From contig CP043991.1 of the NCBI GenBank assembly GCA_015139955.1, positions 240,738-304,737 on the forward strand: a stretch of 64,000 nt of DNA, given 5' to 3'. A program made the translations under genes and the position numbers. This document shows, piece after piece, positions 5,935-59,635 of this stretch (the first letter of the stretch is position 1; every line of letters starts with the position of its first letter). The notes beneath the pieces are model-generated. The model made no database searches. It was not told where the DNA came from and saw only the letters and a list, made by a program, of their open reading frames with translations. Origin of the DNA: Candidatus Stammera capleta (GTDB taxonomy: Bacteria > Pseudomonadota > Gammaproteobacteria > Enterobacterales > Enterobacteriaceae).

Positions 5935-6327
5935 ATGAATAGTGAAAAATTAAATTCTTTAGGTCAAGTTTTAATAAAATATAGAAAAAAATTAAATTTT
6001 ACTCAACAGGATATTGCGAAAAAATTATGTTTAAAATTAGATTTAATTTGTAATATTGAAAAAAATATATTACCTAATAATATTCCGTGAGTATTTTATC
6101 GTGGTTATATATATTCTTATGCACGTTTAGTAAAATTACCTAAAAAGAGAATAGTTATTTTTTTAGAAAAAAATAAAGAACAAAATTATTGTATTTCTAG
6201 ACATTTAATTAAAAAAAATATAAATAAAAATATATTTTTAAATAGTATTTTTTTTTTATTAATAAAATTTATAGTATTATTATTTTCTTTTTATTTTTTT
6301 TTTAGATATTTTAGGAATTTAATTTAA
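5935..6327 (+). CDS. rodZ: Truncated RodZ-like protein: helix-turn-helix plus membrane anchor
   Basis: RodZ links MreB to the inner membrane. This copy has 130 residues against 337 in E. coli. The N-terminal HTH is recognisable: LGQVLIKYRKKLNFTQQDIA, then FYRGYIYSYARLVKLP, which corresponds to TFVRGYIRSYARLVHIP. A single hydrophobic helix (FFLLIKFIVLLFSFYFFF, residues about 104-122) follows and the protein ends there, so the whole periplasmic domain is gone. One Trp is TGA (IPWVFYRG). Position between rlmN and hisS is that of rodZ in E. coli. It has little sequence support beyond the HTH, but the context makes the call firm. Confidence 0.85.
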
Positions 6328-34665: not shown

Positions 34666-34742
34666 TTTATTTATTATGTTTTTTAAAAAAAAAATTAAAT
34701 TATGTTATTATTATATAAAATATAATTATATTTAATACATAT

Positions 34743-35669
34743 ATGTTAAAAAAATATTATCCAGCTTTTTTAAAAGAGATAAAAAAATTTTTAAATATAA
34801 AAAAAGATGGTATTTATATAGATTGCACTTTTGGTTGTGGAGAACACTCTTTAGAAATACTGAAAAATTTATGTGTTTCAGGTAAATTGTTTTCTTTTGA
34901 TATAGATAATGAATCTTTATTAATTAATTCTAGAAAAATACAAGATCCTCGTTTAAATATAATTAATAGTAATTTTTCTTATATAGAGAATTATATTAAA
35001 CGTTTAGGATTTCAAAAAAAAATAAATGGTATTATATTTGATTTAGGATTATCTATTTGACAATTAGATCAATCTAATAGAGGTTTTTCATTTTTAAAAA
35101 ATGATTTATTAGATATGCGTTTAAATAAAAATATTGGTATTTCTGCAATGTATTGATTAAATAATGCTAATGAAAAGGATATTTTTAATGTTATTAAAAA
35201 TTATGGAGAGGATTATAATGCTAAAAATATTGCTAAAAAGATTATTTTTTTTAGAAAAAGAACAGTATTAAAATATACACAAGATTTAGTAAAAATTATA
35301 AAATATGTAGTTGGTGCTAGAAAATATATTAAATCTTTAGCTAGAGTATTTCAATCTATTAGAATTTATATTAATGATGAATTAAATTCTTTAATAAATG
35401 GATTGAAAGCTGCTTATAATATTTTATCTAGTAAAGGTAGATTAGTAGTTATTAGTTTTCATTCTTTAGAAGATAGAATAGTAAAAAAATTTATTTATAA
35501 TAAAACTAATATGAATTTTATACCCAACATACCTTTAACAGATAAACAAATAAATAAATTTTATTCTACTAAAATGATTAATTTAGGTAAATATAAACCA
35601 TCACCAAAAGAAATTATTAATAATAATAGAATTAGAAGCGCTATACTTAGAGTTGCAGAAAAAAAATAA
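34743..35669 (+). CDS. rsmH: 16S rRNA m4C1402 methyltransferase RsmH
   Basis: Also known as MraW; N4-methylates C1402 of 16S rRNA. 308 residues (E. coli 313). IYIDCTFGCGEHSLEIL is the SAM site, then FDLGLSIWQLDQ (Trp TGA), RGFSFLKNDLLDMRL, and the C-terminal GRLVVISFHSLEDRIVKKF and RIRSAILRVAEK. First surviving gene of the mra/dcw cluster; mraZ before it and ftsL-ftsI after it are absent. Confidence 0.96.
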
Positions 35670-35697
35670 ATTAATTTTATTAAATAATGGAGATTTT

Positions 35698-37194
35698 TTG
35701 AAAATTATTAGTTTGAATAAATTATTATTTAAATATTTTTGTTTTATAAATTTTCCTGATATATATATATCAGGTATTTCTTGTGATAGTCGTTTAATAA
35801 AAAAAAATAATTTATTTATTGCACTTAAAGGTTACCATACTAATGGTAGATATTTTATATCTGATGCTGTATGTAATGGTGCTATAGCGGTTTTAACTTA
35901 TTCTAGTATAAGAAAATCATATTATTTATTTAATTATCAGTATAAAATTTATATTTTTTATTTAAAAAAAATAGATATTTTTTTATCTAATATAATATCT
36001 AAATTTTATAATTATCCAGGTAAAAAATTAGTTTCCGCAGGAGTAACTGGTACTAATGGTAAAACTACTGTAGTTAATTTATGTTCTCAATGAGCTTATA
36101 TATTAGGTTATAAAAGTGCTATGTTAAGTACTATAGGTAATGGTTTTTATGGTAATTTATCTCCTTCTTTAAATACAACTGTTTCTTCTTTAGAATTACA
36201 ATCTGAATTAAATTTTTTTTATCAACAATCAACTGATTTTGTTTTTATTGAAGTTTCTTCACATTCTTTGATACAACGTAGAGTAGAAAATGTTTATTTT
36301 TCTTCTGCTGTATTTACAAATTTATCTTTAGATCATTTAGATTATCATATTAATATCAAAAATTATGAATTAGCAAAATTAAAATTATTTTCTGAATATA
36401 AAATTAAAAATTTAATTATTAATATAGATGACCCTATAGGGTATTATTGATTTAAAAATTTATTACCTATAGAAAATATTATACCTGTAACTTTTAATTT
36501 TAAATATATCAAATTATTTAAATATAGATGAATTTATATTAAAAAAATAGAATATTATGGTTTTTTAAAAAAAATTTTTTTTTTATCTTCTTGAGGTAAT
36601 GGAATAATAAAATTATTTTTAATTGGTGATTTTAATATTAAAAATTTTTTTCTTAGTTTTATTACTTTATTATCTTTAAATTTTAATTTAAAAGATTTAC
36701 TAGATAGTAGTAAATATTTAATTTTACCTAAAGGTAGATTAGAATTTATAAAACAAAAAAATCATTCTTTAATAATTATTGATTATGCTCATACACCTAT
36801 AGCATTAAAAAATATTTTATTAGAATCTAGAAAATATTGTCAAGGTAAATTATGATGTATTTTTGGATGTACTGGTAATAGAGATAAAAATAAAAGACCT
36901 ATTATGGGTAGTATAGCTAAAAAGTATTCTGATATAATTATTATTACTAATGATGATGTATATTATGAAGATGAAATTAGTATTATCAATGATATAAAAT
37001 TAGGTATAAATAATTTTAATAATGTTTTTATTATTTTAAATCGTATTTTAGCAATTAAATTTGCTATTAAAAATTCATCTAAATATGATGTTATTTTAAT
37101 AGCTGGTAAAGGTCATGAGAATTTTCATTTTATTTTTGGTAAAAAAATAAAATATTCTGATAAATATTGGGTTTCTAAATTATTAGGAATATAA
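35698..37194 (+). CDS. murE: UDP-MurNAc-tripeptide synthetase (meso-DAP adding)
   Basis: Adds meso-diaminopimelate to UDP-MurNAc-L-Ala-D-Glu. I chose the TTG at 35698 because GGAG (35689-35692) sits six bases upstream and the product is then 498 residues (E. coli 495); an upstream in-frame TTG at 35653 would overlap rsmH. Signatures: SGISCDSRLIKKNNLF, AGVTGTNGKTTVVNL, EVSSHSLIQRRVE, FTNLSLDHLDYH, IIDYAHTP and AGKGHE. Several Trp are TGA. The DAP-specific NDD-type loop reads TNDDVYYEDE, somewhat altered from DNPR, so substrate specificity is inferred from context. Confidence 0.93.
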
Positions 37195-37197
37195 ATT

Positions 37198-38550
37198 ATG
37201 TTTTTATTTAGTTTATTTAAAATAGCTAGTATTACTAATGCTATTTTAGTAGGAAAAAATATATATGTGAATCATATTTCTATCGATACTCGTTTAGACA
37301 ATATAAAAAATTCTTTATTTATTATTATTAAAGGTAATTATAGTATTGATTATTTATATCATGATGCTATTAATAAAGGTGCATTAGCAGTTCTTTCAGA
37401 AAATTTTTTATCAATAAATATACCACAATTAATAGTTAAAGATTCTAATTTTGCTTTATCTAATATAGTTAGTTGATTAAGAAATAAAGTTTCTACTAAA
37501 TTTTTATCTTTAACTGGATCAACAGGAAAAACTTCTGTTAAAGAAATTACTGCTAATATATTAAAAAGATCAGGTAAAACTTTATATAATTATTATAATA
37601 GAAATACTGAATTAGGAGTTTTTAGTACTTTATTAAAATTACAGAAGGATATTTATAAATATTCTATTTTAGAATTAGGTGCTGATAATATAAAAGATAT
37701 AGACTATCTTTCTAGTATAATAAAACCAGATATAGCTTGTATTACTAATATTTCTGTTTCACATTTAAATGGTTTTAAAAATTTTTGAAATATTGTAAAA
37801 AGTAAGGGTAAAATATTTAAAAATTTATCTTCTTCTGGTTTAATTATATTAAATAATAATTATTATTTAAATAATTTCTGAAAAAAATATTTTTTTAATA
37901 AAGAAAAATTTTTTATTTCTTTTATTCCTATAAAAAAAAAAAATTGTATTTCTATATGTAATTTAAAAATTAATTTATATGGTAGTAAATTTACTTTATT
38001 AACTGATTCTGGAAGTATAAATATATTTATAAAATTATTAGGTATACATAATATTTGAAATTGTTTATTTGCTTCTGCTTTATCTTTTTCATCTTCTGTG
38101 TCTTTACAAGATATTAAAATAGGTTTAGAGAGTTTTAATCCTATTAAAGGAAGATTATATCCAATTTTTTTGAGTAAAAATAAATTAATTTTAGATGATA
38201 CTTATAATTCTAATCCGAGATCTTTATATTATAGTATATTATTTCTAAAAAAATGTTTGGGTTATAAGGTATTAGTAGTAGGTGATATGGCTGAATTAAG
38301 TTATATGTCAATATATTGACATTCTAAAATAGGAAAATTTATAAAAAATTTACTTTATATTAATAAAGTATTTAGTATAGGTCAAGATAGTTTTTATATT
38401 AGTAAATATAGTTTGAAAGGGCAACATTTTTTAGATATTAAAAGTTTAGTTTTATATTTAAAATTTATATTTAAATATTATGATCAAGTTACTATTTTAA
38501 TTAAAGGTTCAAGATTTTTAAATATGGAAAAAATAATAAATTTTTTTTAA
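37198..38550 (+). CDS. murF: UDP-MurNAc-tripeptide D-alanyl-D-alanine ligase
   Basis: Adds D-Ala-D-Ala to the stem peptide. 450 residues (E. coli 452). ISIDTRLDNIKNSLF, the ATP loop LTGSTGKTSVKEI, YNRNTELGVFSTLL, LELGADNIKDI, ITNISVSHLNGF, and DDTYNSNPRSLYYSI with VVGDMAEL. Several Trp are TGA. Begins three bases after murE, consistent with one transcript. Confidence 0.95.
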
Positions 38551-38560
38551 AAAATATAAT

Positions 38561-39595
38561 ATGATTAATTTTTTATTTACTTTAACAATACTATTTTTTA
38601 ATAATTTTTTTTTATCTTTGTTTTTTTCTTTTTTTTTATCATTTTTAACGATTAAGTGTTTATTATTTTTGTTTAAAAAATATCAAATATTTCAAATTAT
38701 TCGAAAAAATAATTTAAATAAATTTTTTAAAAAAAAAACTATTCCTACTATGGGAGGAATATCTATTTTCATAAGTTTTTTTGTTTCTTTATTAATTTTT
38801 GTAAATTTTTTTGATATTCATATATTAATATTAATTTTATTTTATATTTTAAATCTTTTAATTGGTTTTTTAGATGATTTTTTAAAGGTTTATTTTAAAA
38901 ATTGTCATGGTTTATCTATATTACAAAAATTTTTTTTACAAAATTTATCTGTATTAATATTTATATATCTTATTATTTCAAATAATTTATATTTTGATAT
39001 ATACAATAATTATTGTTATTTATATTATATATTATGATATTTTTTATTAATATGTGGTATTAACGCAATAAATTTTACTGATGGATTAGATGGTTTAGTA
39101 ATATTACCTATGATATTAGTATGTTTATTTTTATTTATAGTTTCTTTATTAAGTTCTAATATATATATATCATATATGTTAGGTATTAAATATATATATT
39201 ATGCTAAAGATTTAGCTATTATAAGTACTTTAATGTTTGGATCATGTTTACCATTTTTTTATTTTAATTTTTATCCTGCAAAAATTTTTTTAGGAGATAC
39301 AGGTTCTTTATCTATTGGAGCTTTATTAAGTTCTATGTTTATATTACTTCATAAAGAATTTTATTTTATAATAGTAGGTTTTCTATTTGTTATAGAATTT
39401 ATTTCAGTTGTTTTACAGATTTTATATTTTAAATTATTTAATAAACGTATTTTTTTAATGACTCCTATACATCATCATTATGAATTAAGTAATTTTTCTG
39501 AAATTAAAATAGTTGTTATTTTTTGAATTGTTTCTTTAATTTCTTTTTTTTTATCTATTATATTATTTTTTTTTGAGTGTATAAATAATGTTTAA
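38561..39595 (+). CDS. mraY: Phospho-MurNAc-pentapeptide translocase
   Basis: Inner-membrane enzyme making lipid I from UDP-MurNAc-pentapeptide and undecaprenyl phosphate. 344 residues (E. coli 360), about ten hydrophobic segments. TIPTMGGISIF, GFLDDFLKV (catalytic Asp pair), INFTDGLDGLVI, FLGDTGSLSIGALL and the cytoplasmic HHH loop FLMTPIHHHYEL are all present. Trp codons are TGA. Its end overlaps murD by eight bases. Confidence 0.96.
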
Positions 39596-40913
39596 TTATT
39601 ATAATAAAAATATTGTTATTTTAGGAGCTGGTATTACTGGTATATCATGTATAAAATTTTTTATTGCTTTAGGTATTTATCCTAAATTAATGGATATAAA
39701 TTTTATAGATATTAATTTAATTCCTAAAGGAATAGATTATTGTTTTGGTTATTGAAATAAATTTTGAATATTAAATGCTGATGTAATAGTTATTAGTCCT
39801 GGTATTTCTATTTCAAATAATTCTTTGATAATAAAAGTTAAAAATAAAGGAGTAGAAATTATTAATGATATTGAAATATTTTTTAGAGAAATTAAAAAAC
39901 CTGTTATAGCAGTTACCGGAACTAATGGAAAAAGTACTGTAGTATCTTTATTATTTAAAATTTGTCAGTCAAATAATATGAAAGTGTCTTTAGGAGGAAA
40001 TATAGGTATACCAGTTTTAGATTTATTACATAAAAATAGTGATATATATATATTAGAACTTTCTAGTTTTCAGTTAGAATATGTTCAATCTTTAAATACT
40101 TTATGTTCTGTAATATTAAATATTTCAGCAGATCATTTAGATAGATATCCTAATGGTATGCAAGATTATATATTTAGTAAATGAAATGTATTTAGTAAAT
40201 GTAAATATTGTATTATAAATATAGATGATAATTATACTATTCCTGGTAATTATTATGAAAAAAATATTATTACTTTTGGTATAAATAAAGGTAAATACCA
40301 TATAGGTTTTTATAAAAATAATATTTTTTTAAGTAAAAATTGTAATAGAATTATTAATGTAAAAAATATTTTTTTACAAGGTTGGTTTAATTATTTAAAT
40401 TTATTAGTAGTTATTATAATTTCAGATATTTTAAAAATTAAAAGGAATATAATGTTAGATACTATTCAAAAATTTCGTGGTTTACCTTATAGGTTTTATA
40501 TATTAGGTAATAAAAATGGTATTTTATGAATTAATGATTCTAAATCTACAAATATACATAGTACTATATCAGCTTTAAAATCTTTACCATATATATATGG
40601 TAGAATTTGACTTTTATTAGGTGGTGATAGTAAATCTGTGAATTTAAATATTTTTTTAAAACCTTATTTATTATTATATAGGAATCTATTTATATGTTGT
40701 TTTGGCAAAAGTAAAGATATTTTATATAATTTATTACCTCATATTTCTAAAAAATTTAATTATTTGCAAGAAATTATAATATATATTATTAATAAAGTTA
40801 AATTTGGTGATGTAGTTTTATTTTCTCCAGGTTGTTCTAGTTTAGATCAATTTTCAAATTATAAGGAAAGAGGAAAAAAATTTGAATATTTAGTAAAAAA
40901 ATATATTAATTAA
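39588..40913 (+). CDS. murD: UDP-MurNAc-L-alanine:D-glutamate ligase
   Basis: Adds D-Glu. 441 residues (E. coli 438). N-terminal IVILGAGITGISC dinucleotide-like loop, then AVTGTNGKSTVVSLL, ELSSFQLEYVQSL, LNISADHLDRYP, and C-terminal INDSKSTNIHST and SPGCSSLDQFSNYKERGKKF, all diagnostic. Several Trp are TGA. ftsW, which follows murD in E. coli, is absent; murG starts 12 bases on. Confidence 0.95.
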
Positions 40914-40924
40914 AGGAAATTTTT

Positions 40925-41980
40925 ATGGAAATACATCGTTTAATGATTGTTACTGGAGGAACTGGTGGACATATTTTTCCAGGTTTAGTAATTTCTAAAT
41001 ATTTTAAAAAAAAAGGTTGTTTAGTTAAATGAATAGGTAGTGTAAATAGATTGGAATATATTTTAGTTCCTAAATATGGTTTTGATATTAATTTTATTGA
41101 TATACCTAAAATATCTAAATTAAATTTTATTTTTAATATTTTTAAGTTTATTAAAAGTATTTATTTAATTATTAAGATTATGAAAAATTGAAAACCAGAT
41201 TTAGTTTTGGGTTTTGGTGGTTATATATCTTTTTATGGAATTTTATCTGCATGATTGTGTGGAATAAAAACAATGATACATGAACAGAATGCTGTTGTAG
41301 GTTTATCTAATAGATATTTATATTATTTAGCTAACATAGTTGTACAGGCTTTTCCTAATACTTTTAATTCTAATATTCCTACTGTAGGTAATCCTATAAG
41401 AGAAGAAATATTATCTATTCCTAAACCTAAATTAAGATTATTAAAACGTAAAGGTAATATTAATATATTAGTTTTAGGTGGTAGTCAAGGTTCATGTATT
41501 ATTAATAATATAATGTTTGATTTATTAAAATTTTTTATAAATAAAAAATTTTTTTTCTTACATCAAGTAGGTTATATAAATTATAATAATTATATTCATG
41601 ATAAAAGATATAAAAAATATAATAATTATCGTGTAGTTAATTTTATTGATAAAATAGAAAAATTTTATTATTGATGTGATTTAATAATTTCTAGATCTGG
41701 AGCATTAACAGTCAGTGAAATAAGTTCAGTAGGTATTCCCGCTATATTTATACCCTATGTTCATAAAGATAATCAACAATATTTAAATGCTAAATTTTTA
41801 GAAGAAAAAGGAGCTTCTTTAATTATAGAAGAACATAATTTAAATGCACTTTATTTAAGTAAAGTTATTTTAAATTTAAATAGAAATAAATTATTTAATA
41901 TGGCTAATATAGCTTATACTAATAGGATAAAATATCCTAATAAGAAATTTATTAATGAGATTTATAATTTTAAATTTTAG
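40925..41980 (+). CDS. murG: Lipid II synthase (GlcNAc transferase) MurG
   Basis: Peripheral membrane glycosyltransferase turning lipid I into lipid II. 351 residues (E. coli 355). Start IVTGGTGGHIFPGLVI, then GFGGYISFYGIL, HEQNAVVGLSNRYL, PTVGNPIREEI, LVLGGSQGSCIIN, ISRSGALTVSEISSVGIPAI. An AAAGGAAA Shine-Dalgarno-like element lies just before the ATG. Trp codons are TGA. Confidence 0.96.
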
Positions 41981-41988
41981 TTATATAT

Positions 41989-43443
41989 ATGAATAATAAT
42001 TTTGATTTTAATAATATATTTTTAAATATTGATAAAAATAATTTTACAATACATTTTATAGGTATAGGTGGATGTGGTATGTCGGGTATTGCGGAATTTT
42101 TATTTTTATCTGGTTATAAAATTACTGGATCAGATATTAAATTAAATTATAAAACTAAATATTTATCTTCTTTAGGTATCAAAATTTATAATTATCATTC
42201 TAAAAAAAATATTTTAAATGTTAATTTAGTAGTTTATTCATCCGCAATTAATTTAGATAATCCCGAAATTTTAAGTGCATATTTTTATAATATTCCTGTA
42301 GTGAAGAGAATAGAAATATTAAATGAATTAGCAAAATTTTTTTTTTCTATTACAGTAGTAGGTAGTCATGGAAAAAGTACTACTTTATCTTTAATTTTTG
42401 ATACTTTATTTTCTCATAATTTAAAAATCAATTGTATTAATGGTGCTATTATAAAATCTATAAATTCTAGTATTTATATGAGTAATAGTAAATATTTGTT
42501 ATTAGAAATTGATGAAAGTGATGGTTTTTTTTTAAATTTTTCTCCTTCTATAGTTATATTAACTAATATTGATAGAGATCATATTAATAATTATAATAAT
42601 AGTTTTGATAATTTAATTAATTCTTTTGTAGCTTATTTAAATCGCGTTCCTTTTTATGGTTATATTATTGCTTGTATAGATAATTTAATAGTAAGGAAAA
42701 TATTAGAAAATAATTTATTTCAATGTAAAATTATCAGTTATGGTTTTAGTGATGATGCTAATTATAAAATTATAAATTTTACACAAGATAAATATAAAAG
42801 TTTTTTTAGTTTATTATTAAATAATAAACATAAATTAAATTTAGTTTTGAATATGTTAGGTAAACATAATGTTTTAAATTCTGTAGCTGCAATTAGTTTA
42901 TTAAATAATCTTAAGAAAATAAATTTTCCTATTTTAAAAGAAAATTTTTTAAATTTTAAAGGTATAAATAGAAGATCAGAATATATTGGAAATTTTAATA
43001 TTAATATAAAAAATTATTATTTTCATGATATATTAATTTTTAATGATTATGGTCATCATCCTACTGAAATAAAATGTAATTTAAATTCTATTAGAAATAG
43101 TTATGCTAATAGAAGAATAATAATGATTTTTCAACCTCATAGATATACTAGAACATTTAATTTGTTAAATGAATTTATTACTACTTTATCTAAAGTAAAT
43201 ATTTTGTTATTACTAAATATTTATTCTGCTAATGAAAAGAAGATGCTTAATTTTAGTAGTTGTAATATTATTTCTGGAATATATGATATTTTTGGTTTAG
43301 TAAATTTTTTATATATTAAAAATAAAAAAAATATTTTTTTTTATTTAATTAATATTTTAAAAGATAATGATATTATTATATTTCAAGGTGCTGGTGATAC
43401 TGATATTATATTGTCAAATTTTTATTTAAAATATTTAAAATAA
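41989..43443 (+). CDS. murC: UDP-N-acetylmuramate:L-alanine ligase
   Basis: Adds L-Ala, first stem-peptide step. 484 residues (E. coli 491). HFIGIGGCGMSGIAEFLF, VVGSHGKSTTLSLIF, LLEIDESDGFFL, LTNIDRDHINNY, NDYGHHPTEIKCNLNSIR and IFQPHRYTRTFNL, then FQGAGDTDII. Contains no TGA, so it reads as one long frame under either code. Between murG and ddlB as in E. coli. Confidence 0.97.
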   Translation: MNNNFDFNNIFLNIDKNNFTIHFIGIGGCGMSGIAEFLFLSGYKITGSDIKLNYKTKYLSSLGIKIYNYHSKKNILNVNLVVYSSAINLDNPEILSAYFYNIPVVKRIEILNELAKFFFSITVVGSHGKSTTLSLIFDTLFSHNLKINCINGAIIKSINSSIYMSNSKYLLLEIDESDGFFLNFSPSIVILTNIDRDHINNYNNSFDNLINSFVAYLNRVPFYGYIIACIDNLIVRKILENNLFQCKIISYGFSDDANYKIINFTQDKYKSFFSLLLNNKHKLNLVLNMLGKHNVLNSVAAISLLNNLKKINFPILKENFLNFKGINRRSEYIGNFNINIKNYYFHDILIFNDYGHHPTEIKCNLNSIRNSYANRRIIMIFQPHRYTRTFNLLNEFITTLSKVNILLLLNIYSANEKKMLNFSSCNIISGIYDIFGLVNFLYIKNKKNIFFYLINILKDNDIIIFQGAGDTDIILSNFYLKYLK

Positions 43444-43450
43444 AATTTTT

Positions 43451-44383
43451 ATGAAAATTAAAAATATAGCGGTTTTTTTAGGTGGTAATTCTAGTGAAAG
43501 AGATATTTCTATAAAATCTGGATATAGTATTGTAAAATCTTTATTAGATATGAATTTTGTTGTTTATCCTATTGATATGAAATATTTTTCATTAAAATTT
43601 TTTCTAAAAAAATCTTTTGATAAAGTATTTATTGCTTTACATGGTAAAAGTGGGGAAGATGGTACTATACAAGGGTTATTAGATTATTTAAATTTATCTT
43701 ATACTGGTAGTGGTGTATTAACTTCTTCTATAGCAATAAATAAATTTTTAACTAAATTATTAGTTAGTAATTTAGATATTAATATAATACCTAATATATT
43801 GATTAATGAATTTGTATATAAAAAATATTGTTTATTTAAAAAATTTAATAATATTTTTTGTGAAAAAATATTTAATGATCTTGGAAGTCCTGTAATAGTT
43901 AAACCTAATACACAAGGATCTAGTATTGGAATTAAAATTATAAATAATATTAAGGATTTGGGGTTATATTTATATGATAGTTATAAAAAATTTGGTGATA
44001 TTTTAATAGAAAAATATATATATGGTAAAGAATATACTGTAGGTATATTAAATAAAAAAATTTTACCTATTATAAGAATTAAACCTAAGAATGTTTTTTA
44101 TGATTATGAATCTAAGTATATATTTAAAAATAATTATTTTTATCCTCATAATTTAGATATTAAAATAAAAAATATTTTAAATGAAAAATCATTAAATATA
44201 TGAAATTTATTAAATTGTAGAGGTTGTGTTAGAATAGATTTTTTAATAGATAATAATAACAAAATTTGATTTTTAGAAATTAATACTATTCCTGGAATGA
44301 CTAATACGAGTTTAATACCTTATGCTGCCAATATTATTGGAATAAGTTTTAATAAATTAGTAAAAGAAATTTTGTATTCTTAA
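43451..44383 (+). CDS. ddlB: D-alanine:D-alanine ligase
   Basis: ATP-grasp enzyme making D-Ala-D-Ala for MurF. 310 residues (E. coli DdlB 306). [52 protein letters not shown], and after two TGA Trp codons [12 protein letters not shown] and [12 protein letters not shown]. Seven bases after murC. ftsQ, which should follow, is missing; ftsA starts 26 bases later. Confidence 0.96.
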
Positions 44384-44409
44384 ATAATGTTTTTATTAAG
44401 TAAATTTAT

Positions 44410-45675
44410 ATGTTTCAATATATTAATAAAAAAATATTAGTAAGTTTAGAAATAGGTACATATAATTTAAGAGCTTTAGTTGGTGAAATTTTACCGAATA
44501 ATAAATTATCTATTTTAGGTATAGGAATTACAAAAACTAAAGGTATTGAAAATGGAATAATTTCTAATGTTGAATTATTTACACAATGTATTAAAAATGT
44601 AATTAATAAAGCAGAATGTACATCTAAATTTAAAATTACTTCTTTATTTTTATTAATTTCTGGTACTTATTTTCATTGTGTTTATGAAAATGGTATGATA
44701 TTATTAGAAGGTAAAGAAGTTACACAAAATGATATTTCAAAAGTTATTAAAGTAGCTAAATCTGTTATATTACCTAATAATTATTTTATTTTGCATACGG
44801 TTCCTGTAGAATATATTTTAGATTCTAATAAAGGTATTAAAAATCCTTTAGGTTTATCAGGTATACGAATGAAAGTAAAAGTTTTATTAATTATTTGTAA
44901 TTTAATTATTATAAATAATATTAAAAAAATTTTTTGAAATTTAAATATTAAAATAAAAAAAATTATATTTTCTGGTTTAGTATCTAATTATAGTCTATTT
45001 ACTAATCACGAAAAAGAATCTAATGTTTATTTAGTGGATATAGGTAGTAATGCTACTATTATTAGTTTTTATCATTTAAATACTTTATTTTATTTTAAAA
45101 TTTTTCCTTATGCTGGTAATTTAGTTACTAATGATATTTCTTATGCTTTAAATTTATCCAAATCAGAATCTGAATTAATTAAAATTAATTATGGTTGTCT
45201 GGATATTTCTTTACTAAAAAAAAATAAAAATATTGAAATATTTGATTTAATGTTAAAAAATAATTTTTCTAAAAATATTTTAGATAAAACTTTATTTAAT
45301 ATTATTAAAGATAGATATACTGAATTATTAAATTTAATTCATCAAGAAATATTAAAATTACAAAATAATTTTTTCTACGAAGATAAATTCAGTAATTTAT
45401 ATAATATAATTTTAATTGGAGGTGCTTGTGAAATACCTGGTTTATTAGATTATTCTAAAAAAATTTTTAATTATGATGTACGTATTGGTATTCCCCAAGG
45501 ATATATAAAAAATTTTTCTTATTTTAAAGATAAAAATATATTTGTTTCTTCTTTTGCTAATATAGTTAGTTCTTTATTATATATTAAAGATATATATTTG
45601 AATAAAAATTTATCTAATTTTGTATTAAAAAAAAATTTTTTTTTAAAAAAAATATGAAATTTTTTTTTTAATTAA
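44410..45675 (+). CDS. ftsA: Cell-division protein FtsA
   Basis: Actin-like protein that tethers FtsZ to the membrane. 421 residues (E. coli 420), apparently complete: LVSLEIGTYNLRALVGEI, GIGITKTKGIENGIISNVE, VPVEYILDSNKGIKNPLG, VDIGSNATIISFYHLNTL, IILIGGACEIPGLLDYSKK, and a C-terminal amphipathic helix around KKIWNFFFN, like the membrane-targeting sequence of E. coli FtsA. Two Trp are TGA (44935-44937, 45655-45657). Odd because the ftsZ directly downstream is a pseudogene, so its usual partner is missing. Confidence 0.95.
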
Positions 45676-45755
45676 TAATTAAATTATGTTGTTATTTTTT
45701 GAATATATATAATATTTTTAAATAGTTTAAAAATTTAAAAAAATAATTTTATTAA

Positions 45756-46640
45756 TATAAAAATTATAGTATAAGTGATAAAAAAAGTAACATTATATAT
45801 TATATATATAGTAAACTTATTAATAATATAAATTTTTATGTTATTAATGTTGATATCTAAAAGTTATTAAAATTAACTGTTAAAAAAATAAATAAGTAAA
45901 AATATTATTAAAAATTTAAGAGTAGATATAAATTCTAAAAAATATACATTTTACTAAAGAACATAAAAATATTTTAAAATTTATTTTAAATGGTATAAAT
46001 ATATTATTTATAGTTTTTAGTATAGGAAGAGAAAAAAATATATAATAATTTTCTATCATTGTTTGTATTGTTAAAAAATTTTAAATATTAACTATTATTA
46101 TAATAATATAATTTTTTTTTAAGATTTTTTAAAAATATATAAATTTTACTAATAATAGTATTTATAAATTATATAAGTTAGTTAATTTTTAAATTGTAAT
46201 ATTTAATAATAAATTATTAAAAATTTTTGTAAAAATATATTTTTATTAAATATATTTAATTTTTTAAAAAATATCTTAAAATATTCTATTTAGGGTATTT
46301 AAAATTTTTTTATAAAATTAAATTTCATGAAGATAAATTTTATTAATATATATGTTGTGTAATATAAAAAATAGGATGTATTATGTAAGGTAGAGAAGTT
46401 GTATTTATAAAAAATAAAGATTTTAAAATAATTAAATTGGTTATTTTAAATTATTTAGTAGATATTTTTATTTTACAAATATATTTGTAAATATAAGTTT
46501 TTTTTGAGATTTTAAAATTATTAGTAATTTTTATGTTTTTTATTTTAAAAGAGATACAATAATAGTTATTGGTATATCTTAAAACAGTAATATAAATAAT
46601 ACATTACATATTATTTTTATTACAACAGGTATTTTTTAAA
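45756..46640 (+). pseudogene. ftsZ: Decayed ftsZ
   Basis: No long open frame, but collinear remnants of FtsZ run through three frames. In order: SDKKSNIIYYIYSKLINNI then NFYVINVDI (E. coli GGGGGNAVEHMVRERIEGV then EFFAVNTDA); IKNLRVDINSKK (TKGLGAGANPEV); TKEHKNILKFILNGINILFI (ADEDRDALRAALEGADMVFI); KNILKYSI-stop-GI (NDVLKGAVQGI); MKINFINIYVV (MNVDFADVRTV); DTIIVIGIS-stop-NSNINNTLHIIFITTG (DNATVVIGTSLDPDMNDELRVTVVATG). The distance between first and last block, about 880 bases, matches the intact gene. Changes are mostly G-to-A and C-to-T, including CAA-to-TAA stops, and the GTPase loop GGGTGTG is destroyed. Position after ftsA is that of ftsZ. Confidence 0.92.
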
Positions 46641-46790
46641 ATAAATATATTAAATAATTTTATTTGAAGATATTTTTTTTAAAAAAAAGATTAAAATTAA
46701 TAAAATAATTTTTTAAAAAAATAAATTTATTTTTTAAATTAATAGAAAAAATATTAATTTAAATATTTTATTTTTTTTACGTAAAATAAA
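46641..46790. other. AT-rich spacer after the ftsZ relic
   Basis: About 150 bases, nearly all A and T, where lpxC would stand in the ancestral order. I could not find any recognisable remnant of lpxC or other gene. Confidence 0.4.
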
Positions 46791-47098
46791 TTAATTAAAT
46801 TTTAAATTAGGATTTATTTTTATATATATATATTTAATTTTATTATACTTCAAAGTTTTTATAATTTTAAATTTATTTTTTTCTATATATATTTTCCAAT
46901 TTATATTAGAAACTTCTATAATAATAGAATTATTAATTAAATTTGTTATTTTAAATTGTTTTTTGATTTTTTTAGGTAATTTTTTTTTTATTTTTTTTTT
47001 TATTAAATTAATTAATTCAATTTTTTTTAAAATTTTATTTAGAAAAGTATTTTTTTTAATTATTTCTGTTATCGATAAAATTTTTTTTTTATTTTCAT
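46791..47098 (-). CDS. dciA: DciA-like (DUF721) protein, start separated by an A10 frameshift
   Basis: DciA loads DnaB in bacteria that lack DnaC. The frame ending at 46791 was read codon by codon and is open back to about 47132. It gives LSITEIIKKN, LPKKIKKQFKITNLINNSI, IIEVSNINWKIYIEKNKF and KIKYIYIKINPN, which has the DUF721 pattern (LPxxLxxxxxVxNLxxGxLxxxxxSxAWxxxLR, then VRxIRIRV). No ATG, GTG or TTG is in this frame; the ATG at 47098 joins it only if a run of ten A (47081-47090) gains one base. Position upstream of secA, on the opposite strand, is where many gammaproteobacteria carry this gene. About 103 residues. Confidence 0.6.
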
Positions 47099-47180
47099 TA
47101 GTGTTTTTTAATATAAAATATATTATAATTATTTAATTATATAATATTTTATTTTAATTATAAATTATTTTTAATATAAT

Positions 47181-49625
47181 ATGTTTATTAAGTTATTTTC
47201 ATATTTATTTGGTGATAAAAACCAAAAAAAAATTTTTGATTTTCAAAAAATTGTTTCAAAAATTAATTGTTTAGAAATTGAATTTTCACAATATTCTAAT
47301 ATTGAATTAAAATCTAATACTTTTAAATTTAAAGATTTACTTATGTCTGGTAAAAATTTAGATTTAATTATTTGTATGGTATATGCAAATATTAGAGAAG
47401 CTATTAAAAGAGTTTTTGGAATAAGGTTATTTGATGTTCAGTTATTAGGTGCATTAATTTTAAATAGTGGTTGTATAGCAGAAATGAAAACAGGTGAAGG
47501 TAAAACTTTAACTGCTACTTTACCAGCTTATTTAAATGCTTTATTAGGTAGAGGTGTACATATTGTAACTGTAAATGATTATTTAGCCAAGAGAGATGCT
47601 GATTATAATTCTAAATTATTTGATTTTTTAGGTTTAAAAGTTGGTTTAAATTTATCTAATATGTCTATATCAGAAAAAAAAGAAGCATATCTAGCTGATA
47701 TTACTTATGGTACAAATAATGAGTATGGTTTTGATTATTTACGGGATAATATGGTTTTTAATAAGGATGATAAAGTTCAAAGAGAAGATTTATATTATGC
47801 TATTTTAGATGAAATAGATTCTATATTAATAGATGAAGCTAGAACACCATTAATCATTTCAGGATCTACACAAGAAAATTGTGATTTGTATTTTAAAATA
47901 AATAAAATTATTCCTTTTTTAGTAAAAAATTTAAAGAATGATTTAAAACAAAATACTGGTGATTTTATAGTAGATGAAAAATCTAAACATGTTTTTCTTA
48001 CTGAAAATGGTATTATAAAAGTTGAAAATTTATTGTTTTATAATAATATTTTAAATAAAAATGATAAACTTTATACGTCTAATAATATTAAAATAATACA
48101 TTGTATAATTAATTCTTTAAAAGCTCATTATTTATATAATAAAAATGTAGATTATTTAGTTGAAAATAATAATATTCTTATTATTGATGAACATACTGGT
48201 AGAATAATGAAAAATAGAAGATGAGCAGATGGTTTACATCAAGCTATAGAAGCTAAAGAAAATGTTGATATTCAAAATGAAACTAATATTTTATCATCTA
48301 TTACTTTTCAAAATTATTTTCGTCTTTACAAAAAATTATCTGGTATGACTGGTACTGCTATTACGGAAGCAGATGAATTTAGTTATATGTATAATTTAGA
48401 TACTATTTCTATTCCAACAAATAAACCAATGATTCGTCATGATTATTCTGATTTAGTATTTATTACAGAAAAAGAAAAAATAAATGCTATTATAAAAGAT
48501 ATAATATTTAGAAAAAATAAAGGTCAACCTGTTTTAGTAGGTACTATTTCTATAGAAAAATCTGAATTAATTGCTTCAATTTTATATAGTAAAGGTATTC
48601 AATTTAATGTTTTAAATGCTAAATTTCATAGTTTAGAGGCTAATATTATTTCACAGGCTGGTAAATTAGGTTCAGTAACTATTGCTACTAATATGGCTGG
48701 TAGAGGTACTGATATTATATTGGGAGGAAATTTATGTGAAAATATTTTAAATTTAAAAAATAAAGAAAAAAAGATGAAAATAAAATCTGAATGAAAAAAA
48801 AATCATGATATGGTAGTTAGTTTAGGTGGATTATATGTTATTGGTACTGAAAGACACGAATCTCGTAGAATTGATAATCAATTAAGAGGTAGATCTGGTA
48901 GGCAAGGTGATCCTGGATCATCAAGATTTTATGTTTCTATGGAAGATAATTTAATGCGTATATTTTCTTCAGAAAAAGTAATATTTTTTATGCGTAAATT
49001 AGGTATTAAATATGGAGATTCTATTGAACATTATTGAATTAATAAATCTATTGAAAGAGCTCAAAAAAGAATAGAAAATAGAAATTTTGATATTAGAAAG
49101 CAGTTATTAGAATATGATAATATATATAATGATCAAAGAAAAATTATTTTTTGTAAAAGAAATAGTTTTTTATATTCTGAAAATATTAGTTTAATATTTA
49201 AAGATATTGTTAAAAAAGTAGTACTAAATTTAGTTGATATTTATTTTAAAAATAAAGATTTATTTTTAAAATATTGTAGTGATTTAAATATTTTTATTGT
49301 ATTAGATAATAATATATATGATTTTATATCTTTAAAAAAAATTATTTTTAAAAAAATTATTTATTTGTATAGAAAAAGAAAAATATATTTTGGTTTAGAT
49401 CATTTAAATAATAAAATTAAAGAAATTTTATTAATTACTTTAGATTTATTTTGAAGAGAATATATCTATGCTATAGATAACTTAAAAGAAGGTATATTTT
49501 TATGTAGTTATGCTCAAAAAAATCCTAAACAAGAATATAAAATAGAATCATTTAAAATGTTTTCTATAATGCTTAACGATTTTAATCGTGAAATTGTGAA
49601 AATTATTATTAATTTATCTATTTAA
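47181..49625 (+). CDS. secA: Preprotein translocase ATPase SecA
   Basis: Motor of the Sec export pathway. 814 residues (E. coli 901). [20 protein letters not shown], Walker [21 protein letters not shown], Walker [73 protein letters not shown]. Trp codons before ADGLHQ and elsewhere are TGA. The C-terminal linker and the SecB/zinc-binding CxCxnCH tail are absent. It is the only export motor seen here and would serve the porin and the inner-membrane proteins. Confidence 0.97.
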
Positions 49626-58422: not shown

Positions 58423-59547
58423 TTAAAATTTATAAATAAATCCTAGTGTAAAATTATTATTTTTACAATTATTATTAAATTGATTTATTTTATAGTCTAT
58501 ATATCCGAAAAATGATTTATTAAATTTATATGTTGCTCCTATGTTAAAATATTTTTCTATATCTTGATTGTATGGAGTATAATATCCATGATATTTAGTT
58601 TTATCTAAATTTTTAAATGTAGTTTGTGTGTATCCTATTATTGGTGTAAAACCTGAATTAAAATTATATTTAGCAATTAGATTAATATTTTGTGTTTTAT
58701 TAATAAATTTATATTTATTATAATTATTACTATTTGTAATAACTTTTATTAAATTTAAATTATTTCCTTCTATATAAGAATAGGCTATATAGAATTTATT
58801 TAGGTTATATTTAATACTTGTAGATCAAGCTGATGAAATATTGCTTTTAAAGTTATTTAAAATATTTTCATTATAATTAATTTTATTTTCTTTATTTATA
58901 TTCTGATTAGCATAAGCTGAAGATATTTCTATGCCATTATTTGTTTTAATGTTATAACCTATTCCTCAACCATTTTTAATTGAATATAATTGTTTATTTA
59001 ATGTATTGTTTTTACCTTGATATTCTCCTGTTAAAGTAATATTTTTGATAAAAAAATTTTTATTATTTAATTTGAAAGTTTTTTTGTAAGTAATAAGATT
59101 ATCATTAATTCCTGTTAAACTATTATCTTTAAATATTTTACTTTTAAAATATGGAGATATATTTGTGTATGATAATGAATTATATACCATAGAATGGTAT
59201 TTACCTACTTTAATTTTACCTATTTTATTATGTTTTACACCAATATAAATTAATTTATTAGAAATATGACTATTTTTATTATTAGCATCAATATATTCTA
59301 TTAATTTTCCAAAAGTAGAAATATTTTTTTGTTTTTTAGTTTTAGCATCTATTTCTAAAAGTATAGAATTATTTTCTAATGTATTATTTTTTTTGTTAAA
59401 AATTTTTTTAGTTTCTATTGTTCCATTTATATTTATTAAAATATCTTTATTATTTATTATATTTGTTGCTTTTAAATTTCACTGTATACCAAACAATAGT
59501 AGTAATATACTAAGTATATTAAATATATTTTTTGTATTTTTACTCAT
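58423..59547 (-). CDS. Outer-membrane porin, OmpF/OmpC type
   Basis: Trimeric beta-barrel channel. 374 residues (E. coli OmpF 362). Signal-peptide-like start (SKNTKNIFNILSILLLLFGI), a barrel of alternating strands such as NGWGIGYNIKTNNGIEISSAY, KYNLNKFYIAYSY, ARYNFNSG-like YNFNSGFTPIIGY, and the obligatory C-terminal Phe in FTLGFIYKF. FGKLIEYID and KYHSMVYNSLSY resemble the loop regions of OmpF/OmpC. Two TGA Trp codons. A Shine-Dalgarno AAGGATA precedes the ATG. It stands beside asnS, the place of ompF in E. coli. The only obvious outer-membrane protein in the window. Confidence 0.9.
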
Positions 59548-59635
59548 ATATTTATCCTTAATTTGATTGTTTTAATATGCAAATATATTTTATTATATTA
59601 ATTTAATTAAGTATTAACAATAGTAATATTATGTA

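Follow-up and report, generated by a model that had tools for sequence, protein, structure and literature searches.

FtsA is usually described as the tether of the division protein FtsZ. Bacteria that have lost FtsZ are known from several lineages. Chlamydia has no FtsZ and keeps MreB, RodZ, penicillin-binding protein 2 (PBP2) and the lipid II genes, and MreB with RodZ has been proposed as a possible mechanism for other FtsZ-less bacteria as well (PMC7029139). Candidatus Endolissoclinum faulkneri, a tunicate symbiont, is reported to have lost ftsZ while retaining most peptidoglycan and rod-shape genes (PMC3851785). The SUP05 clade (Thioglobus, Ruthia, Vesicomyosocius) is described as FtsZ-less Gammaproteobacteria (PMC6509183, PMC4164004), of which Thioglobus expresses MreB (PMC6509183), and FtsZ losses in insect symbionts are listed in PMC4164004. 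In the table of PMC10591338, each of the 12 groups of obligate intracellular bacteria has the same percentage for ftsA as for ftsZ, either 100 or 0. Here we analyse the final 64,000 bases (the window, G000:C1:240738-304737) of the main contig (304,737 bases) of a Candidatus Stammera capleta genome, G000, which like Chlamydia lacks FtsZ and keeps the genes just named. Its ftsZ is almost certainly a pseudogene, and the ftsA gene beside it has very probably been maintained by selection after ftsZ was lost. Judged from the sequence, FtsA in this genome probably does some job other than partnership with FtsZ.

The interval between ftsA and secA measures 1505 bases in G000 and approximately 1510 bases in the sister genome G009, which carries an intact FtsZ there (an open frame of 365 amino acids, PF00091 E-value 8.6e-49). 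Alignment of the G000 relic with ftsZ of G009 yields 768 identical bases out of 1058 (72.6%) and a score of 2159, against 1117 +/- 39 for 200 dinucleotide shuffles (z = 26). Chance likeness of AT-rich DNA to ftsZ is therefore ruled out, as no shuffle scored above 1216. A profile of five FtsZ proteins, applied to 24 translated frames, finds collinear pieces across all three forward frames (18-55 in +2, 80-172 in +1, 166-215 in +0 and 272-324 in +1), with an E-value of 3.9e-21 for the best single frame. The alignment contains 32 indels, 22 of which are not multiples of 3, and 19 of the 331 gap-free codons are TAA or TAG. These stops remain whatever TGA means, which rules out that the frames are broken merely by a wrong genetic code. 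The GTP loop GVGGGGGNA has turned into (gap)ISDKKSNI and the GTP-binding loop GMGGGTGTG into SIGREKNI followed by a stop, and the 190 polarised changes include 64 G>A and 33 C>T. A preliminary description of this DNA had placed an ftsZ pseudogene at 45756-46640, with stops, remnants in three frames, a destroyed GTPase loop and GC-to-AT decay. All of this is borne out; the coordinates are correct and the relic extends slightly further (45712-46791).

No FtsZ is found elsewhere: PF00091 has no match at E <= 10 in the whole assembly (310,648 bases in two contigs), which rules out a second copy, and the same family is matched in 28 of 40 genomes (G000 among them) and in 13 of 14 controls. Given the completeness rating of 94%, it might be argued that ftsZ is intact in the organism and was mis-assembled or is missing in the assembly. 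We consider this extremely unlikely, however, as the relic sits exactly where synteny puts ftsZ, its indels and stops are spread along its length, the genes beside it are intact, and FtsZ is missing in 10 of the 12 genomes of the genus. With ftsZ dead and no second copy found, division in G000 must work without a Z ring, as had been proposed in the preliminary description.

The adjacent ftsA frame (44404-45675, ATG at 44410) is open, with two TGA and no TAA or TAG in 423 codons; at the stop rate of the relic approximately 24 TAA or TAG would be expected. Under the standard code the gene would look broken. Reading of UGA as tryptophan is supported in G000 by the many open reading frames (ORFs) of the window that stay open only in this way (table 4), and by the outgroup residue at TGA codons in ten genes (rsmH, murE, murF, mraY, murD, murG, murC, ddl, ftsA and secA), which is tryptophan in 13 of 31 cases for G018 and 15 of 29 for G022. 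The same reassignment is listed for Stammera capleta in PMC8629427. FtsA matches TIGR01174 at positions 2-349 of 371 with 311.6 bits (cut-off 175.85), finds solved FtsA structures with a best E-value of 7.2e-84 (7q6d) and is 72% identical to FtsA of G009. The earlier claim that ftsA is intact thus holds with UGA read as tryptophan.

How long ago ftsZ died was estimated with G001 as outgroup, using the sites where ftsZ of G009 and G001 agree. The relic differs at 81 of 247, 66 of 286 and 43 of 219 such sites for codon positions 1, 2 and 3, respectively. Shared G/C sites have turned into A/T in 62 of 86 cases at position 1 and 51 of 79 at position 2 (together 113 of 165), compared with 3-11% in eight intact neighbours (murF, mraY, murD, murG, murC, ddl, secA and rsmH). 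From a rough two-state clock that treats sites as independent and takes its calibration from synonymous third positions with G/C (198 sites), ftsZ has been neutral for an estimated fraction of 0.96 (bootstrap 0.67-1.31) of the G000 branch. Under this clock, decay at positions 1 and 2 equals what synonymous sites would be expected to undergo along roughly the entire branch. Had ftsZ died very recently, these positions must have decayed much faster than synonymous ones. The loss thus looks old: ftsZ appears to have died early on the lineage and to be far decayed towards base-composition equilibrium. The suggestion that the loss is recent and was caught in progress is not supported by this estimate.

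This age bears directly on the idea that FtsA is a laggard, left over from a recent death of ftsZ and yet to decay. FtsA and FtsZ normally work together, and each partner is gone in 10 of the 12 genus genomes and both in nine, so losses often go together. Over a neutral period of ftsZ spanning about the whole branch, however, ftsA has stayed open without TAA or TAG, frameshift or excess changes, which argues against a laggard and makes this explanation highly improbable. From G009 to G000, ftsA changed G/C into A/T at 12 of 78 sites (position 1) and 11 of 85 (position 2), against 91 of 124 and 68 of 104 for the relic, which puts ftsA near the bottom of the nine genes compared. Taken the other way round, the G009 copy lost 0.37 and 0.20 of its G/C sites at these positions, so it is the G009 gene that drifted more. 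With G018 and G022 as outgroups, 14 unique FtsA changes are counted in G000 against 20 in the FtsZ-bearing G009 (18 against 26 with G018 alone). Subdomain 2B, which binds FtsZ, has (taken at its presumed boundaries) one unique change in G000 against four in G009; by subdomain the changes sum to 13 and 20, gapped sites being left out. The unique changes, the G/C-site loss and the subdomain 2B counts together rule out a relaxed FtsA. Since ftsA is open and shows no acceleration while the relic has long been neutral, selection very probably kept FtsA after the death of ftsZ.

Besides the lipid II genes, G000 encodes components of the Rod complex. The single PF00905 transpeptidase is MrdA (PBP2; 543.8 bits, cut-off 455) and the single SEDS protein (PF01098) is RodA, with 382 bits against a cut-off of 336.7; its score with the FtsW model is 275.5, below the cut-off of 337.5. 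No second PF00905 or PF01098 protein, as a possible FtsI or FtsW, was found by family search. MreB (551.7 bits, cut-off 365.75), MreC (106.2 bits, cut-off 92.75) and RodZ (NF008109 70.4 bits, E-value 2.1e-19; HTH_25 30.6 bits, cut-off 24.6) are present as well, so that mreB, rodA and mrdA, the genes singled out for a search in the preliminary description, are all there. Its claim of a complete lipid II pathway stands for murC, murD, murE, murF, mraY, murG and ddl, the seven genes that were covered, all of which are intact.

In the 11 further genomes of the genus, the equivalent place was located with secA as anchor. FtsZ (PF00091) occurs in two of the 12 genomes (G009 and G001) and FtsA in two (G000 and G009), with both partners together in G009 alone. 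Irrespective of the tree, then, FtsA stands without FtsZ in G000, and FtsZ without FtsA in G001. Neither this split nor the absence of FtsZ from ten of the 12 genomes was noticed in the preliminary description, which was made without comparison genomes. The C-terminal peptide of FtsZ docks FtsA and ZipA. FtsZ of G001 (L057) has an intact GTPase domain and has lost this IPxFLR-like peptide, which is kept in G009 and three outgroups. Matches of TIGR01174 in G001, G003, G004 and G008 (E-values 6.5e-12 to 9.9e-14) were rejected as FtsA, as their coordinates fall within MreB matches.

The mur cluster lies beside secA in G000, G009, G001, G003, G004 and G008; within these six, FtsZ and FtsA are each found in two. 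In G002, G005, G006, G007, G010 and G011 the cluster is not at the place adjacent to secA (mur genes elsewhere were not searched). PF00905, PF01098 and MreB proper occur in all six genomes with the cluster and in none of the six others. RodZ adjoins hisS in all six of the former; in the latter, the 2.1-3.4 kb that precede hisS contain no RodZ match. MreB matches of at most 62.3 bits in the six genomes without the cluster were rejected: most of the signal comes from frames 528-635 amino acids long, which we take to be DnaK/HscA, and two are short neighbouring pieces. These six genomes (L058-L061, L063, L064, L110-L115) give no match to FtsZ, FtsA, MreB, PF00905, PF01098 or RodZ, and are apparently without a wall and any known division scaffold.

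A tree of the genus built from RsmH and SecA (supports 64-100) joins (G000,G009) and then (G001,(G004,(G003,(G008,G002)))), with (G006,(G005,(G007,(G010,G011)))) standing separately. On this tree at least three losses of FtsZ, two of FtsA and two of the wall genes are needed; G002, without wall genes, is sister to G008, with wall genes (support 100). Sorted by gene content, the genus has one genome with a Z ring, one that is FtsA-only and one that is FtsZ-only, next to three Rod-only genomes and six that are apparently wall-less.

The analysis shows the relic and its age class, that FtsA is constrained, which genes G000 holds and that its sisters have lost the partners reciprocally. The present binding partner of FtsA and the way in which cells constrict we infer from these results. 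The explanation that we prefer overall, with slightly better than even confidence, is that the Rod complex runs both wall growth and division with FtsA as an FtsZ-independent accessory. The Rod complex (the PBP2-RodA pair, MreB, MreC and RodZ) would do all wall synthesis and would also drive the constriction or budding that separates the cells, as proposed for Chlamydia, whose MreB and RodZ are reported to be able to replace FtsZ activity in E. coli (PMC7029139). FtsA would stay as a membrane-bound actin-like activator or positioner; its simplest job would be to position or stimulate the RodA-PBP2 synthase or MreB. An effect on RodA is plausible because FtsA is reported to activate FtsW, a SEDS relative of RodA, in E. 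coli (Park et al. 2021, as cited in PMC10591338). For Rod-complex-driven division with FtsA as helper, taken by itself, we see the chances as balanced. An even call, too, is the broader proposition that FtsA has an FtsZ-independent selected function, that the partners have split both ways in one genus and that the Rod complex is common to the members with wall genes.

Division could instead be driven by the host or by physical forces (organ secretions, shear, blebbing) without an internal scaffold, the Rod complex merely keeping the wall. The persistence of six sisters without any of the scaffold and wall-synthase matches listed above makes scaffold-free division seem possible. Stammera, however, is described as an extracellular resident of organs of the foregut and of egg spheres (PMC12905250, PMC10910848), where direct scission by host membranes is harder. 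This explanation also leaves the constraint on FtsA unexplained, and we regard it as rather unlikely. FtsA is itself a membrane-binding actin homologue, and in G000 it keeps the core and C-terminal region; that it forms a division ring without FtsZ is nonetheless very unlikely, given that G003, G004 and G008 exist with neither FtsA nor FtsZ and that FtsA has no known ability to constrict cells by itself.

Several observations weigh against a selected FtsA acting with the Rod complex. The FtsA outgroups are distant, and the age estimate depends on the rough two-state clock, its 198 synonymous sites and site independence. The pairwise ratio of nonsynonymous to synonymous rates (dN/dS) of ftsA and its sister, a comparison already called for in the preliminary description, is 0.51, which lies inside the range of nine genes (0.31-0.62) and is the third highest. 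A C-terminal stretch of FtsA aligns at the position of the membrane helix but is weakly amphipathic (moment 0.63), with 13% of shuffles as good. RodZ is cut down to its cytoplasmic half (helix-turn-helix plus a hydrophobic segment) and falls below the full-length cut-off of 208, MreD is a weak match (21.1 bits, cut-off 34.85), and a DacA-like protein scores below the equivalog cut-off (339.4 against 694). Only for G000 does the identification of PBP2 and RodA rest on family models. Since G001, G003, G004 and G008, four sisters that keep the mur cluster, manage without FtsA, the Rod complex does not generally need it. The complex is itself eroding, as MreC is present in five of the six mur-cluster genomes and was not found in G004, and the RodA-like SEDS match of G003 (G003:C1:203396-204430) spans one in-frame TAA, so that G003 may lose this wall gene next. 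Finally, support is 64 where the two clades with the mur cluster meet; G001 groups with the clade of G004 at 96, and G004 with that of G003 at 74 (100 in the tree that leaves out the six others).

The features of the window are collected in Table 1.

Table 1. Features of the division and wall region and of rodZ, in positions of the window
Feature	Position	Strand	Basis
rodZ, short form, adjoins hisS	5938..6327	+	NF008109, HTH_25
rsmH (mraW), first gene of dcw cluster	34722..35669	+	TIGR00006, 288 bits
murE (true start downstream of ORF start)	35593..37194	+	TIGR01085, 432.6 bits
murF	37195..38550	+	TIGR01143, 298.2 bits
mraY	38540..39595	+	TIGR00445, 243.4 bits
murD	39585..40913	+	TIGR01087, 333.3 bits
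murG	40919..41980	+	TIGR01133, 281.4 bits
murC	41989..43443	+	TIGR01082, 429.8 bits
ddl	43451..44383	+	NF002378, 322.1 bits
ftsA, intact, 421 codons from ATG, two in-frame TGA	44410..45675	+	TIGR01174, FtsA structures, comparison with G009
ftsZ pseudogene, full length, 9.2% GC	45712..46791	+	alignment with G009 ftsZ, collinear profile matches in three frames
small ORF between ftsZ relic and secA	46791..47132	-	PF25093, PF05258 below cut-off
secA, named by reading of sequence	47181..49625	+	syntenic anchor

The small ORF that follows the relic on the reverse strand scores 16.5 bits with PF25093 (DUF7807; cut-off 27) and 13.9 bits with PF05258 (DciA; cut-off 24), and a comparable reading is present in G009, judged by eye. 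An outer-membrane porin is kept in G000 as well (58423-59562 of the window, reverse strand, PF00267 107.6 bits). The GC content of the window is approximately 11-21% per 2 kb. The genus consists of 12 genomes of approximately 0.2-0.3 Mb each, in a family that includes genomes of approximately 5 Mb and 0.5 Mb. GH28 polygalacturonase (PF00295) is matched in all 12, weakly in G002 (34.4 bits) and with an E-value of 1.0e-60 on C2 in G000, and in four of 14 controls. These features and the reading of UGA as tryptophan fit Stammera, described as a tortoise-beetle symbiont of approximately 0.2-0.3 Mb that carries polygalacturonase (PMC12905250).

Beyond the genus, FtsZ is present in 107 of 119 family genomes; the 12 without are G000, G007 and 10 from other genera (0.2-1.0 Mb). 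In these 10, TIGR01174 gives a whole-model match only in G104 (200 kb), with 93.1 bits, below the cut-off, whereas the 45-53 bits in G016, G017 and G115 concern the part of the model that MreB matches too. The FtsA-like ORF of G104 (L097:9193-10335) and a secA-like ORF after it are 30 bases apart, leaving no ftsZ in the gap, and by eye the protein has lost the nucleotide (phosphate) motifs and the C-terminal helix. G104, which has two PF00905 proteins, may thus be a second lineage with FtsA and no FtsZ, though its protein is so divergent that the function may differ.

If our explanation is true, FtsA without FtsZ in one genome and FtsZ without FtsA in a sister would show that the functions of the partners are separable, and offer a natural test of the effect of FtsA on wall synthases. 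FtsA would be an accessory of the Rod complex, and the genus would line up division machines in a natural series, with the Z ring at one end and no machine at the other, in which the order of dismantling becomes directly testable from gene contents side by side. Bacteria that lost FtsZ and kept MreB or wall genes are already known; new, as far as we found, are a constrained FtsA without FtsZ and the reciprocal loss of the partners. Our literature search found no case of an ftsZ relic that can still be read next to an ftsA under constraint, and none of reciprocal FtsA/FtsZ loss within one genus; the main Stammera genome papers (Salem 2017, Salem 2020, Garcia-Lozano 2024) lay outside this search and could contain either. 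The portions of published Stammera comparisons that it covered hold no discussion of ftsZ or ftsA in Stammera; one paper deals with peptidoglycan genes in Stammera and with ftsZ in other symbionts. Patchy loss of peptidoglycan genes in Stammera has already been published (PMC8032781, PMC12905250), with murD, murE and ddl reported absent from the symbiont of one host (PMC12905250). The known systems differ from G000 as follows.

Chlamydia uses PBP3, whereas in G000 MrdA is the single PF00905 protein and no FtsI/PBP3 was found by the family search. In Chlamydia, moreover, ftsA is tabulated in 0% of 194 genomes and ftsQ, ftsL and ftsB in 99-100% (PMC10591338), whereas G000 keeps FtsA. For Endolissoclinum the published account reports no findable ftsZ pseudogene (PMC3851785); the relic of G000, in contrast, is full length and readable and has an intact sister for comparison. 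For the SUP05 clade no ftsZ relic is described in the passages available, and ftsA has 0 occurrences in the main text of PMC6509183. The Buchnera of Lachninae aphids are, like G000, reduced enterobacterial symbionts and are reported to have lost most divisome and wall genes (PMC10591338). According to the same source, however, they have kept both ftsZ and ftsA and dropped the wall synthases, which is the reverse of what we observe in G000.
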